Below, one piece after another: positions 7,031 to 53,687 of a stretch of DNA of 64,000 nucleotides. Source of the stretch: Streptomyces maremycinicus (GTDB lineage: Bacteria; Actinomycetota; Actinomycetes; Streptomycetales; Streptomycetaceae); the NCBI RefSeq assembly GCF_001184025.1, contig NZ_BBYG01000008.1:1-64000 (forward strand). Reading direction: 5' to 3'. The notes beneath the pieces were generated by a model. That model did not search any database, was not told the DNA's origin, and worked only from the letters and a program-made list of their open reading frames with translations. The number at the start of each line of letters is the position of its first letter. Positions within the stretch are counted from its first letter, which is position 1. Made by a program: the position numbers and the translations under genes.

Positions 7031-8101
7031 ATGGCGGATGCCAAGGTCATTCCGTTCGACGACGACCGGTCCCGGGGGAGCGCCGTGACGCGGCCGCCCC
7101 GGCGCCGGGGCGCGGTGAGCCGGCGCCGGAACGGCGAGCCCGCGCCGGTCCGGGAGATCGGTGAGGCCGAGGAGGTCGGTGAGGTCCAGCCCCTGCCCAC
7201 CAGGGCTGTTGGGCAGGATGATGTTCCTGTGACGGGTGAGCAACGGCTGGACACGGACGCGGGCGGCCTGGAGCGGCGGATCGCGGGTGGACTGTCCTTC
7301 CTGCGCCGGCGTCTCACGGGCGACTACGAGGTCGACGACTTCGGCTATGACGAGGAGCTGACCGACCAGGTCCTCATGTCCCTGCTGCGGCCGCTGTACG
7401 AGAAGTACTTCCGGGTCGAGGTGAAGGGTGTCGAGAACATCCCGGCGGAGGGCGGCGCGCTGATCGTCGCCAACCACTCCGGGACGCTTCCGCTGGACGG
7501 CCTGATGATGCAGGTCGCCGTCCACGACCATCACCCGGCGGGCCGTCACCTGCGGCTCCTGGCCGCCGATCTCGTCTTCGTGCTGCCGGTCGTCAACGAG
7601 TTGGCGCGCAAGCTCGGGCACACCCTCGCCTGCGCGGAGGACGCCGAACGGCTGCTCGCGCAGGGCGAGCTGGTCGGGGTGATGCCGGAGGGCTTCAAGG
7701 GCATCGGGAAGCCCTTCAGCGAGCGCTACAAGCTTCAGCGGTTCGGCCGGGGTGGCTTCGTCTCCACGGCACTGCGCCAGGGCGCGCCGATCATCCCCTG
7801 CTCGATCGTCGGGGCGGAGGAGATCTACCCGATGATCGGCAACGCGAAGACGCTGGCACGGGTGCTGGGCTTCCCGTACTTCCCGCTGACGCCGACCTTC
7901 CCGTGGCTGGGTCCCCTGGGTGGGATCCCGCTGCCGACGAAGTGGACGATCCAGTTCGGCGAGCCGATCCCGACGGACGGCTACCCGCCGGAGGCAGCGG
8001 AGGACCCGATGCTGATGTTCAACCTGACGGACCAGGTCCGCGAGCAGATCCAGCACACGCTGTACAAGCTGCTGGTGCAGCGGCGGTCGGTGTTCTTCTG
8101 A
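7031..8101 (+). CDS. PlsC-type lysophospholipid/glycerol acyltransferase
   Basis: A 356-residue protein with a disordered, Arg- and Glu-rich N-terminal 100 residues and a C-terminal PlsC acyltransferase domain. The acceptor motif reads NHSGTLPLDG with H149 and D156, a longer spacing than the classical HX4D. The second block is VMPEGFKG, corresponding to the FPEG motif. Such enzymes acylate lysophosphatidate or related lipids at the inner membrane face. It sits 14 bases behind the SDR gene. The last 34 bases of the gene are the start of a 148-base tandem duplication that continues downstream. Confidence 0.8.
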   Translation: MADAKVIPFDDDRSRGSAVTRPPRRRGAVSRRRNGEPAPVREIGEAEEVGEVQPLPTRAVGQDDVPVTGEQRLDTDAGGLERRIAGGLSFLRRRLTGDYEVDDFGYDEELTDQVLMSLLRPLYEKYFRVEVKGVENIPAEGGALIVANHSGTLPLDGLMMQVAVHDHHPAGRHLRLLAADLVFVLPVVNELARKLGHTLACAEDAERLLAQGELVGVMPEGFKGIGKPFSERYKLQRFGRGGFVSTALRQGAPIIPCSIVGAEEIYPMIGNAKTLARVLGFPYFPLTPTFPWLGPLGGIPLPTKWTIQFGEPIPTDGYPPEAAEDPMLMFNLTDQVREQIQHTLYKLLVQRRSVFF

Positions 8102-8404
8102 CGGGTGGCGATGGCCCGGGGTTCGTGGCCGGGGTTCGGTGGGCCGTCGGGCGGAGTCCGGCGCGGCCGTTCGAAGCCCGCGGAGCGGTGCGAGGGCGGC
8201 GGGGGGAGGGGCGGAGCTGCTGGTGCAGCGGCGGTCGGTGTTCTTCTGACGGGTGGTGATGGGCCGGGGTTCGTGGCCGGGGTTCGGTGGGCCGTCGGGC
8301 GGAGTCCGGCGCGGCCGTTCGAAGCCCGCGGAGCGGTGCGAGGGCGGTAGAGGGAGGGGCCGAGCTGCTGGTGCAGCGGCGGTCGGTGTTCTTCTGACGG
8401 GTGG
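8068..8404. repeat. 148-base tandem duplication spanning a gene end
   Basis: Copy 1 runs 8068-8215, copy 2 8216-8363, and a third partial copy of 41 bases 8364-8404. The unit starts inside the acyltransferase gene (GCTGCTGGTGCAGCGG), includes its TGA and continues into intergenic DNA. Copies differ at only a few positions. Together with the hairpin at 8436 it accounts for the whole 395-base gap before rsbN. Confidence 0.9.
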
Positions 8405-8435
8405 CCATGAGCCGGGCGGGTTGCTTCGGGTACGG

Positions 8436-8496: not shown

Positions 8497-9732
8497 CTAC
8501 TCCGCGTCCTCGCTGTCGATGCCCAGGCCCGGGAGGAGGCCGGGGAGGAGGGGCGGGAGGGTGACGTCCGGCTGGGTGGTGGGGACGAGGGGGGTCGGGG
8601 CGGTGCCGCCGGTCTCCTTCGGAGGGTCCAGCAGGCCGCCGGTGTTGCCGCCGAGCAGGCCGTCGTCGGTGGTGCCCGAGGTGGACGACTTGCTGGGGCT
8701 GTCGGTGCCGGCGCCGGTCCCGTCGGACGGGGCGTGGCCGGTGCCGGGGGTGGTCGCGTGGCGGCCCGTCTCCGAGGCGCCGGGGGAGGCCGGGTCGGAG
8801 CCCTCGCGGGTGCCGCTGCCGCCCGGGGCGGGGGGCCGCGGGAGCAGGGACTGGAGCGGGGCGACCTCTTCGTCTATGGCTTCGAAGACCGACGAGACCT
8901 GCTGACTGACGTCGCCGAGCTGGACCGGCAGGCGGTCGCGCAGGGCGCCCCAGACCTCGCGGTGCGAGCGGGAGAACGCGTCGAGGGCCTGGATGGGGCC
9001 CAGGGAGTTCGGGTCGCGTTCATACGCCTCGTGCAGGAGGCGGTGGCCTTCCGACGCGTCGTGCTGCATGCCGTTCAGGGCGCGTCGGATCTCGCCGAGC
9101 GACTCGTGGTCGAGGTCGCCGCTGCGGCCCCGCTCCATGAGCCGTCGGGCTTCGCTGAGCCGGGTGGAAGCCTGGTCGAGGTAGGTCCGACCGCGTTCGT
9201 CGTCCCCGTCGGCCAGGTAGTTGAGCTTGAAGTCCTCGATGCCGCGCTTCAGCCCGTAGAGCCCGTCGCCCGGGAGGGCGTCGGAACTCGCGGCCGCGAC
9301 GCCGCCGAAGGCGCCCGCCGCGACGCCGACGCTGAGGCCGCCCGCGGTGAGGCCCTTGGCGAGGCGGGATCGCGGCCGGAACTTGCCCAGTGGGCCGGCC
9401 CGGTGAGCGCCCCTGGCGCGGTGGGAGCGTTGCTCCGGCACCGAAGGGTCCGCCGTTTCGCCTTCGGCGGTGCCCGCTTGCAGCATGGCCTCCATGGCGG
9501 CGACCAACTGGGCCCGCTGGACGACCTTGACCTCGGGATCGAGCTCCGGTTTGGGCAGCTCGGCGAGACTCGTGGCGAGGGCCAGAAGTCGGCCCTGCCC
9601 GGTCTGGTCCGCAGCGGCCGGCGCCGGCGGTGATCCTTCGGTCTGCTCGGCCGCCGTGCCCTGGTCGGACTGCTCCTCCAGGGCCTGGGCGAAGGCGCTT
9701 GCCCGCCGGTGCGCCGATACGTTCGCGATCAC
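8497..9732 (-). CDS. rsbN: RsbN, membrane-bound anti-sigma factor of BldN
   Basis: A 411-residue protein starting VIANVSAHRRASAFAQALEE. The cytoplasmic N-terminal part (about 1-115) is the sigma-binding domain, one membrane helix follows near residues 120-145 (GLTAGGLSVGVAAGAFGGVAAASS), and the outer part is a DUF5667-type helical domain with a Ser/Thr/Gly-rich tail. Its position directly downstream of bldN is the known arrangement in Streptomyces, where RsbN sequesters sigma-BldN until development. Start: GTG at 9732 has AGGAGG eight bases upstream; the GTG at 9741 is too close to that site. Confidence 0.9.
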   Translation of the reverse strand: MIANVSAHRRASAFAQALEEQSDQGTAAEQTEGSPPAPAAADQTGQGRLLALATSLAELPKPELDPEVKVVQRAQLVAAMEAMLQAGTAEGETADPSVPEQRSHRARGAHRAGPLGKFRPRSRLAKGLTAGGLSVGVAAGAFGGVAAASSDALPGDGLYGLKRGIEDFKLNYLADGDDERGRTYLDQASTRLSEARRLMERGRSGDLDHESLGEIRRALNGMQHDASEGHRLLHEAYERDPNSLGPIQALDAFSRSHREVWGALRDRLPVQLGDVSQQVSSVFEAIDEEVAPLQSLLPRPPAPGGSGTREGSDPASPGASETGRHATTPGTGHAPSDGTGAGTDSPSKSSTSGTTDDGLLGGNTGGLLDPPKETGGTAPTPLVPTTQPDVTLPPLLPGLLPGLGIDSEDAE

Positions 9733-42961: not shown

Positions 42962-43782
42962 GGCGCTTCGCGCAGGTGGGGCTGCTGGTGCTGGGCGGGC
43001 TGGGCCTGTTGCACACCTCGCTGTTCACGGACGAGTACCTGCGGTACGTGAAGGAGGGGATGCGTCCGCTGCTGATCGCGTCGGGCGTGCTGCTGGTGGT
43101 GCTGGGCGTGGCGGAGGCCTGGGCCGGCCGACGGGAGGAGAACCCCGGCGGACACGGCGGGGCGGGGCGTGCGCACGAGGGGCACGGTCGCGAGGAACCC
43201 GAGGGGCATGAGGGGCATGAGGGGCATGAGGGGCACGGAGGGCATGCGGGCCACGGGCATGATCATTCTCGGGTCCCGCGGGTTGCCTGGCTGCTGTTCC
43301 TGCCCGTGCTGAGCCTGCTCTTCTACGCGCCGCCCGCGCTCGGCTCCTACACGGCCTCCCGCGAACCGGCGAAGGCCGTCGCCGTGCAGGAGGACGCCTT
43401 CGATCCGCTGCCCGCGACCTCCCCGCTGCCGATCACGCTCACCGAGTTCACCCAGCGGGTCCAGCAGGACCGGTCGAAGGCCCTGGGCGGTCGCGAGGTC
43501 GTGATGACCGGGTTCGTCACTCCGGCCCCGGCGAAGCTGGACGGCTGGTATCTGACCCGGATCATCGTCAGCTGCTGCGCGGCGGACGCGTCGTCCGTGA
43601 AGGTGCTGGTCCAGGGGATCGCGGCGCCGAAGGCCGACACCTGGGTGAACGTCACCGGGACCTGGCGGGGCAGCGGCACGCTGGGCACCTCGTCGGCGGC
43701 GGTCGCGTTGGACGCGCGGGCCGTGCTGAAGGTGCGCAAGCCGCCGAACGCGTACATGGACGCGCTGCCACTCCCGTCCTGA
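42958..43782 (+). CDS. TIGR03943-type membrane protein with His-rich loop
   Basis: 274 residues. Two N-terminal membrane helices, a His/Glu/Gly-rich loop ([20 protein letters not shown]) that should bind zinc or another soft metal, a third helix ([20 protein letters not shown]) and an outer domain with the REVVMTGFV and [17 protein letters not shown] strands, typical of TIGR03943. The double Cys may bind metal. GTG start overlaps the permease stop. The permease/TIGR03943 pairing is typical and is often zinc-controlled in actinobacteria; no Zur box was recognised here. Confidence 0.82.
43201..43245 (+). repeat. Nine-base tandem repeat encoding the His-rich loop
   Basis: GAGGGGCAT occurs three times in tandem followed by GAGGGGCAC and GGAGGGCAT. 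The unit is three codons long (Glu-Gly-His), so copy-number change would alter the number of metal-binding His triplets without breaking the frame. Confidence 0.85.
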
Positions 43783-51941: not shown

Positions 51942-52655
51942 ATGACTGCTGGGCGGTGTACCCGCACGCTACGGGCCGCGCTGTTCGCGGCTGTCTGCGT
52001 GCTGCTCGCCGCCCTGGGTCACGTGACGATGTCCGGGGCCGAGGTGCCCGTCTGGGCGCTGGTCGCGGGTGTCGCCGTCACCGGCGCCGCCGGCTGGTGC
52101 CTGGCGGGCCGGGAGCGCGGGCTGCCGCTGATCGTGACGGTCGTGGTCGCCGCCCAGACGGCCCTGCACTCGGCGTTCTCGCTGGCCGGGTCGGAGCCCG
52201 GCGGCGCGGCGTCCGTGGGCATGGACGCCCTGGGGACCGGCTCGATGCGTATGGACTCCATGGACATGAGCATGGGCATCGGCATGGGCCACGTGAGCCA
52301 TATCGGCCCCATGGACCACATGCAGCACATCGGCCACATGGGTCATATGAGTCACATGGGGGAGGGCGCCGGAGTAGGGGGCTCCTCCTCGTTCGGCATG
52401 CTCGCCGCCCACCTGCTCGCCGCGCTGCTGTGCGGGCTGTGGCTGGCGCACGGCGAGAAGGCCGCGTTCCGGATCCTGCGGGCGGTGGCCGGACGGCTGG
52501 CCGCACCGCTGCGGCTGCTGCTCGCCCTGCCCGTCCCCCCGGACCGCCCGCGTGTCCGGTTCCGCCGGCGTGACTCGGCGCGAGCGCCCCGCCTGCTCCT
52601 CCTCACCCACGCGATCACCACTAGGGGTCCGCCCCTGGGGCCCGCTGCCGCCTGA
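51942..52655 (+). CDS. Met/His-rich integral membrane protein
   Basis: 237 residues, about four membrane helices. Between helices 3 and 4 (about residues 94-140) is a loop built of Met and His (SMRMDSMDMSMGIGMGHVSH, then HMQHIGHMGHMSHM), the ligand set expected for copper or silver. The C-terminus is Arg-rich and cytoplasmic. ATG start with GAGG five bases upstream. It lies between the divergent LuxR gene and an ECF sigma gene, and its TGA is the first triplet of a long heptanucleotide repeat. Confidence 0.75.
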   Translation: MTAGRCTRTLRAALFAAVCVLLAALGHVTMSGAEVPVWALVAGVAVTGAAGWCLAGRERGLPLIVTVVVAAQTALHSAFSLAGSEPGGAASVGMDALGTGSMRMDSMDMSMGIGMGHVSHIGPMDHMQHIGHMGHMSHMGEGAGVGGSSSFGMLAAHLLAALLCGLWLAHGEKAAFRILRAVAGRLAAPLRLLLALPVPPDRPRVRFRRRDSARAPRLLLLTHAITTRGPPLGPAAA

Positions 52656-52897
52656 CGACGTCCGTCCCGCGTCCGACGTCCGACCTTTGGCCTCTGGCCT
52701 CTGACCTCTGATTACGAGCGTCTGACAGCCAACGCGCGACGCCCGACGCCAGATGTCCGAAGTCCGGCATCTGATGCCGAGCGTCCGACGCCTGACGCCT
52801 GACGCCTGACGCCTGAAGCCTGAAGCCCGACGTTGGACGCCGATGTCCGGCGCCTGACGTCCGGCGCCTGACGTCCGGCGCCTGACGTCCGACGTCC
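52653..52897. repeat. 35-unit heptanucleotide tandem array
   Basis: 245 bases can be cut into 35 consecutive seven-base units, consensus (C/T)GACG(C/T)C, beginning with the stop codon TGA of the Met/His-rich gene. The best part (52786-52834) has TGACGCC three times and TGAAGCC twice in a row; the last 56 bases alternate GGCGCCT and GACGTCC. It fills most of the 375-base gap before the sigma factor gene. Confidence 0.9.
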
Positions 52898-53030
52898 GCC
52901 CGAAGGCCGGCAGCAGGCGACCCGGGGCTGCCCCTGTGCGCCCCGGGCCACGGCCGTACGCCCGCGCGGTCAGCCGGGCGTGGGCCGTCTCTCCCTCATG
53001 CCCTCGTGGATGATCCGAGAAGGACACCAG

Positions 53031-53687
53031 GTGATCACGTCTGCCCTGAAGGTGCCTCAGACACCCCGAACCTCCCAGGCACCCCGAACGCCCCAGCCCT
53101 CCCACCCGACACAGAACGCACTCGACGAGTCCATCACCGCATGGGCGCTGGCCGCCCGGGCCGGTGACGCGGACGCGGTCGAGCGCTTCGTACGCGCCCT
53201 GCACCGGGACGTCCTGCGCTACGTCTCCCATCTGTGCGCCGACCCCCAGGCGGTCGACGACCTCGCCCAGGACACCTTCCTGCGCGCCCTCGGCAGCCTG
53301 CACCGGTTCGAGGGCCGCTCCTCGGCCCGTTCCTGGCTGCTGTCCATCGCCCGCCGTGCGGTGATCGACAGCTACCGCTGCGCCGCCACCCGGCCCCGGC
53401 TGTCCGACGTGCCGGACTGGCAGCGCGCCGCCGAGCGCTCCCAGCCGCGCGACCTGCCGGGCTTCGACGACGGCGTCGTCCTGCTGGATCTGCTGGCCGC
53501 GCTTCCGGCCGAGCGGCGGGAGGCGTTCGTCCTCACACAACTGGCCGGTCTGCCTTACGCGGAGGCGGCGGAAGCGAGCAACTGCCCTGTGGGCACCGTG
53601 CGTTCACGCGTGGCGCGGGCCCGGGCGACCTTGGTGGACCTGCTGGAGGAGAACCCGCCGCACACCCCCGCCCCTCTGGTGGCCTGA
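53031..53687 (+). CDS. ECF-type sigma factor
   Basis: 218 residues. A Pro/Thr/Gln-rich leader of ~40 residues, sigma region 2 (FVRALHRDVLRYVSHLCADP, DDLAQDTFLRALGSLHRFEG) and region 4 (LPAERREAFVLTQLAGLPYA, CPVGTVRSRVARARATLVDL). SigJ-independent short ECF type; no anti-sigma gene is adjacent unless the Met/His-rich membrane protein plays that part. GTG 53031 with AAGGA seven bases upstream is preferred over the ATG-less longer frame from 52980. Confidence 0.85.
   Translation: MITSALKVPQTPRTSQAPRTPQPSHPTQNALDESITAWALAARAGDADAVERFVRALHRDVLRYVSHLCADPQAVDDLAQDTFLRALGSLHRFEGRSSARSWLLSIARRAVIDSYRCAATRPRLSDVPDWQRAAERSQPRDLPGFDDGVVLLDLLAALPAERREAFVLTQLAGLPYAEAAEASNCPVGTVRSRVARARATLVDLLEENPPHTPAPLVA

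Follow-up and report, generated by a model that had tools for sequence, protein, structure and literature searches.

The window analyzed here is the whole of a 64,000-nucleotide stretch of Streptomyces maremycinicus DNA, from a genome of 8.72 Mb in 33 contigs. On its plus strand, an open reading frame for a Met/His-rich protein of 237 residues (51942 to 52655 in the ORF list) ends with the stop codon TGA at 52653 to 52655 and is followed by an ECF sigma factor gene (53031 to 53687), whose product contains Sigma70_r2 and Sigma70_r4_2 domains. Between the two genes lies a plus-strand heptamer array (52653 to 52897) composed of 35 degenerate units with the consensus YGACGYC. The first base of the array is that of the stop codon, and its 3' end is located ~134 nucleotides upstream of the inferred start of the sigma gene. 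The array thus runs in a noncoding position, from the stop codon to before the sigma gene. The number of units, the start on the TGA that ends the Met/His-rich gene, and the location upstream of an ECF sigma gene are all as proposed in the original prediction.

The Met/His-rich protein did not match any Pfam or NCBIfam family at an E value of 0.001. The best NCBIfam model for the sigma factor was SigC, with 165 bits for a cut-off of 219, and the protein is SigC-like by sequence, below the model cut-off, and is not assigned to SigC. The mechanically listed ORF for this protein begins at 52980; position 53031 (GTG) is the probable start, GAGAAGGA..GGTGATCA (ribosome site and start) being conserved in G086, the best-matching relative. 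SigC of Mycobacterium reportedly prevents copper starvation (PMC7924339). By analogy, a link to copper for the pair formed by the Met/His-rich and SigC-like proteins (51942 to 53687) is a plausible guess.

Segmentation of positions 52653 to 52898 against YGACGYC yielded 34 heptamers and one hexamer (GATGTC), confirming that the phase is never off by more than one base. The most frequent bases at the seven positions of the unit were Y, G, A, C, G, Y, and C. TRF with weights 2/3/5 returned a single array (52656 to 52898) of period 7 with 35.3 copies, 66% matches, and a score of 172. With weights 2/5/7, the array was broken into three pieces of period 7 (24.0 copies and a score of 73 for the best) and one of period 14 (7.3 copies, 81%). 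The lag-7 identity of the array was 0.622, in comparison to a mean of 0.286 (SD, 0.030) and a maximum of 0.403 in 2,000 dinucleotide shuffles. The tandem array is therefore real, and its 7-periodicity is the strongest of the 64 kb (245-nucleotide windows, step of 5 nucleotides). Near-perfect copies occupy the middle of the array, forming the core CGACGCC-TGACGCC(x3)-TGAAGCC(x2). A homogenized 14-nucleotide dimer block, (CGGCGCC TGACGTC) x3, lies at the 3' end; close to the 5' end, there is also a TGGCCTC block. These two blocks look to have been homogenized separately from the core. The idea that the array grows solely from its center is hence not supported, given the 3' dimer block and the 5' TGGCCTC block in addition to the near-perfect core.

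The RNA spanning positions 52630 to 52960 was predicted to fold better than 100 shuffled sequences (z = -4.56), so the array may, as had been suggested, be a source of structured RNA. Searching Rfam with positions 52300 to 53300 revealed three matches of the microRNA type, all below the gathering scores, and no known RNA family. Parts of the array were matched at 76 to 78% by 2 of 72,556 plasmid records, one from a Streptomyces plasmid and one from a Paracoccus plasmid.

The array is inserted in a structure that the original prediction did not mention. The arms GCTGCCG (52644 to 52650) and CGGCAGC (52908 to 52914) can form a perfect 7-bp stem across the array; both are intact in the window, 257 nucleotides apart, and the array occupies the loop between them. 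A second, terminator-like hairpin without a U tract, CCCGGGGC...GCCCCGGG, follows at 52921 to 52947.

Among 392 genomes of the genus, the best match at the locus was found in G086, with 85% DNA identity in the sigma part and 79% in the Met/His-rich gene. In that genome, CGACAGCAGG is present directly 3' of the stop codon and is followed by the second hairpin, with nothing of the array. None of the 48 nonduplicate orthologous loci containing both genes had an array of heptamers where the Met/His-rich gene stops, as judged by eye over the 70 nucleotides past the stop and by the lag-7 score over the spacer. Lag-7 identities of 0.55 to 0.60 over 60 nucleotides were detected further down the spacer at three orthologous loci. 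Two of the signals (L014 and L027) were C-rich or had another period. The third (L058, in genome G260) was due to a run of three or four heptamer-like copies, GTCGGCA CTCCGCA CTCCGGT, located past the second hairpin, ~70 to 100 nucleotides after the Met/His stop, indicating that short runs of heptamers can also form at other places in this spacer. In a second search of the genus (353 genomes), the genome of origin was alone in spanning the site at an E value of 1e-40; the genomes that this search listed were all within the earlier 392, so that it probably added little. By sequence comparison, the array is lineage specific, and its presence and the length of the spacer differ between species. 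The proposal of a variable-length spacer holds to the extent that length differs between species and that the array is absent from the site in relatives, in collections containing one genome per species.

The hairpin that encloses the stop codon is older than the array in the sense that its stem is conserved in orthologs, the 3' arm being located a few nucleotides past the stop in relatives. In most of the 48 orthologs, as at 52641 to 52655 of the window, the second hairpin, which is also conserved, is preceded by a hairpin whose loop contains the stop codon. Perfect stems of 6 or more bp enclosed the stop in 39 of the 48 orthologs, in comparison to 44 of 1,017 genes sampled from three genomes. 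The commonest form of the arms was GCTGTC..GACAGC; GCTGCC was associated with GGCAG in six orthologs and with GACAGC in one, in which this position is unpaired. The replacement of U-A by C-G, with changes on both sides, was found in 6 of 40 sequences. Pairing of the first hairpin in the 48 orthologs involved 92.7% of the cells, versus 89.4% with shuffled arms (maximum of 1,000 shuffles, 91.3%). These counts, and those from the alignment below, come from related sequences and are supportive rather than proof.

The two hairpins were analyzed together in an alignment of 40 orthologs, from which 8 divergent ones of the 48 were left out, including seven with stems of less than 6 bp. In this alignment, 84.3% of the cells were paired, versus 81.6% after shuffling and 32 to 51% after sliding, and changes on both sides were found at 7 of 15 pairs. 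The covariation score was 0.119, versus 0.081 (SD, 0.008) for shuffled alignments, and none of 500 shuffles scored as high. These values include the sequence of G086 (L051), misaligned owing to a loop longer by 3 nucleotides, and the outermost pair of the first helix (columns 5 to 26), which is unpaired in 28 of the 40 sequences and is to be dropped. For the second hairpin, both-sided changes affected 5 of 8 pairs, and 80.4% of the cells were paired in the 40 orthologs. RNAalifold predicted the first hairpin (6 pairs) unaided on the orthologs; it did not predict the second. The pair of hairpins is by itself a candidate for a conserved RNA element and, located beside a sigma gene, is of separate interest. 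The palindrome GCTGTCGYCTGACGACAGC, with up to one mismatch, was found in 7 of 61 related genomes, with a single match in each, at the stop of the Met/His-rich gene in six cases and elsewhere in one (G026). In the genome of origin, no other match with a central TGA was found with up to two mismatches. The palindrome occurs once per genome where present and thus does not resemble a multisite operator of a regulon.

These observations lead us to consider that the array is probably a lineage-specific heptanucleotide minisatellite that grew by slippage from the stop-codon heptamer. The array, its exact start at the stop, its absence in the relatives examined, the hairpin with its paired changes, and the surviving arms were observed directly. 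The ancestral site would have been a small hairpin with the stop codon in the loop, about CGCTGCCGCC-TGA-CGGCAGC. Slipped-strand replication would have duplicated the heptamer TGACG.C, which starts at the stop codon; further rounds of slippage, together with local homogenization and point mutation, would then have led to 35 units. Slippage as the mechanism is inferred from the sequence, and the locally homogenized blocks fit with it. Retention of the stop by the first copy would leave the protein unchanged, so that extra copies would be tolerated. Slippage at the stop-codon heptamer would thus be retained and growth would proceed downstream. The exact start at the stop would be accounted for because duplication of a unit starting on the stop leaves the protein as it was, whereas duplication of a unit within the gene does not. 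The absence of the array in relatives suggests that it is probably near-neutral, although the predicted fold (z = -4.56) and the survival of both arms leave room for selection on the RNA. By stalling the polymerase, the hairpin may, as a conjecture, have aided the growth of the array. The hairpin was rejected as a general seed of arrays: among 57 other arrays starting on a stop, drawn from a set whose duplicate filter removed long perfect arrays, 54 had flanking stems of only 2 to 5 bp and 3 had stems of at least 6 bp.

Arrays of TGACGCC (3.7 units, up to two mismatches) were found in 83 of the 392 genus genomes, including the genome of origin, and arrays of the stop-free control unit GCAGTCC were found in 38. 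When 84,980 species were scanned for four exact units, at least 117 stretches were obtained, with several phyla among the 80 titles listed. The genome of origin contains at least two further TGACGCC or TGACGGC arrays (at 470.6k of contig C15 and 388.0k of contig C9). TGACGCC arrays are scattered and follow genes with differing last residues. We analyzed 51 loci of the genus, namely, one further array of the genome of origin, 30 retrieved loci, and 20 others from among the places listed, the window array not being included; 48 were parsed, and three had no core. In 28 of the 48 arrays, an upstream gene in the sense orientation had its stop codon within the array, as the first (24 arrays), second (1 array), or third (3 arrays) TGA. 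The 20 others were between genes, with an upstream gene on the TGA strand (15 arrays) or on the other strand (5 arrays), so that 43 of the 48 arrays had an upstream gene on the TGA strand. None was within a coding sequence, versus 295 of 378 single copies of TGACGCC. For the control unit, 30 loci gave 28 arrays, 4 of which had a stop at their start (Fisher P = 2e-4). The species-wide set comprised 109 usable arrays, left from 117 loci once two duplicates, as well as six arrays located too close to an end of their locus, had been removed. The stop was inside 59 of these arrays: it was the first TGA in 39, the second in 8, and the third in 3, and in 9 it preceded the first counted unit or was off phase. 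A further 35 arrays were between genes, and no upstream gene was called for 15.

Starts at stop codons are therefore common for TGACGCC arrays, which, like the insertion between the hairpin arms, goes beyond the original prediction. Single noncoding copies provided the reference for this bias. In the genus, the stop was the first TGA in 24 of 48 arrays and 23 of 83 single noncoding copies were on a stop codon (Fisher P = 0.014). The count of single copies excluded seven that belonged to arrays and one that overlapped the end of a gene. The species-wide values were 39 of 109 arrays and 16 of 97 single noncoding heptamers (Fisher P = 0.0025); the two sets overlap, and their P values are not independent. 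Much of the placement of arrays on stops is expected, because single copies frequently coincide with a stop codon and arrays do not occur within genes. The residual excess is estimated at about 2-fold. Gene ends were located by a custom codon-usage caller trained on seven genes of the window, by which 82% of the sample was called coding; noncoding counts are thus probably inflated, and the 2-fold value is an estimate. TGA-bearing heptamer arrays begin on stops far more often than arrays of the stop-free control unit, largely because of where duplication is tolerated. A general excess of period 7 was rejected, since the counts in 1.12 Mb of sequence not selected for arrays were no higher than those of other short periods. 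Noncoding arrays with at least 2.8 copies numbered 3, 3, 10, and 5 for periods 7, 8, 9, and 10, respectively, and those with at least 3.8 copies numbered 3, 2, 4, and 2.

The array could instead be a functional RNA of tunable length, a long structured 3' untranslated region or leader setting read-through into the ECF sigma gene and adjusted by slippage. Several features favor such an element: the array is flanked by the arms of a conserved hairpin, a second conserved hairpin follows closely, the sigma gene lies downstream, and the original arms pair in a predicted fold better than 100 shuffles. We nonetheless consider this unlikely, since the array is lacking in relatives that have the same two genes, palindromic units (GACGTC, GGCGCC) fold well even without selection, and TGACGCC arrays follow many other genes. 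The more specific proposal that the conserved hairpin cradling the stop is a read-through switch, made length-adjustable by the array in its loop so that the repeat number would tune sigma expression, is very unlikely. We regard as similarly improbable that the array is a safety net of stops in three frames, kept past the end of the gene to catch read-through or frameshifted ribosomes. The frequency of stops as the first TGA (24/48 in the genus and 39/109 species-wide), higher than for single noncoding heptamers (23/83 and 16/97), is in its favor, but three units would suffice and 35 are unnecessary, the excess at stop codons is only about 2-fold, and arrays of the stop-free GCAGTCC exist too (38 of 392 genomes).

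Many units fit the near-palindrome GRCGYC, which occurs 16 times in the array in comparison to a window average of 1.2 per 245 nucleotides, and the array could accordingly be a multisite target for protein binding or methylation. Such richness is, however, expected of any such consensus drifting by transitions, the array contains no -10 box (TANNNT), and its units have a spacing of 0, unlike the 4 or 15 nucleotides given for SARP-type sites (PMC8780764). A role as a binding or methylation array is hence highly improbable, and the lack of a -10 box within the array also led us to reject a promoter array of -35 boxes. Finally, the original prediction held that the repeat is noncoding since seven is not divisible by three. 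This argument fails, because three units make up 21 nucleotides and a minus-strand ORF of 523 codons (51969 to 53540) is open across the whole array; a 79-codon ORF (52712 to 52951) also overlaps it. A minus-strand coding repeat with a heptapeptide of the type ASGVRRQ is still almost certainly not the explanation, because the 523-codon ORF lies antisense to a pair of conserved genes and the array is missing from relatives. The codon-usage caller, whose seven training genes included this sigma gene, also picked the two plus-strand genes and none on the minus strand at this locus.

The slippage minisatellite thus remains the preferred reading, and the array has the features of a heptanucleotide simple sequence repeat or minisatellite: copies above chance, a noncoding position, and presence differing between relatives. 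The cyanobacterial STRR heptanucleotide repeats are also tandem heptamers; their units and hosts differ from those of the array. Among the top-ranked titles of the open-access literature, none dealt with TGACGCC or Streptomyces heptanucleotide arrays, which is weak evidence of absence. Rehm et al. (2015, PMC4692102) describe simple sequence repeats with heptameric units in Xanthomonas and Nostoc (GGGAATC and GGGGA(C/T)T), mention Calothrix heptamers, and note that heptamers are over-represented in many bacterial genomes, with polymerase slippage cited as a hypothesis, and that Xanthomonas repeats are near or overlap stop codons. As portrayed there, these repeats share with the array the period of 7, degenerate and intergenic units, and variation in length and sequence between relatives. 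In contrast to the array, with its 35 YGACGYC units between hairpin arms, the Xanthomonas and Nostoc unit is G-rich and quadruplex-forming and prefers four units. YGACGYC has no run of three or more Gs on either strand, and CCC appears at some unit junctions only.

MacGregor (2015, PMC4679880) reports TAACTGA direct repeats in Beggiatoaceae, Cyanobacteria, and Bacteroidetes. They provide stop codons in all three frames, reach 43 copies in some species, and have a suggested role in translational regulation; in 13 sets, there is overlap with the stop of an upstream gene, and stop-overlapping arrays occur in Beggiatoaceae. On that description, the present array is also built of a stop-bearing heptamer overlapping the stop of an upstream gene. 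It differs from TAACTGA in unit and position, since it is made of YGACGYC and starts on the stop codon, whereas TAACTGA repeats are mostly within several nucleotides upstream of a start codon. Heptameric operators of SARP regulators occur in the same genus and, according to PMC8780764, were sought at a spacing of 4 or 15 nucleotides upstream of transcription starts. The array is not of that type, being contiguous, located after a stop codon, and devoid of TANNNT.

The kind of repeat is thus known, including near stop codons, and its ancestral state is unusually clear here. The array has the appearance of an expansion that is recent, specific to this lineage, and located within a predicted hairpin that is conserved. 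The ancestral loop is known from relatives, the arms are still present, and the first copy is fixed by the stop codon, offering a clear before-and-after view of the birth of a long bacterial minisatellite.

Other tandem repeats were detected. The genome of origin contains a GGCTGCG array of 23 copies, called noncoding, in contig C14 (388663 to 388831; positions 8663 to 8831 of locus L293). Within the window, TRF reported a 148-nucleotide unit present in 2.4 copies with 95% matches (8067 to 8416) and a tandem run of the 9-nucleotide unit GAGGGGCAT in 5.6 copies (43201 to 43250).
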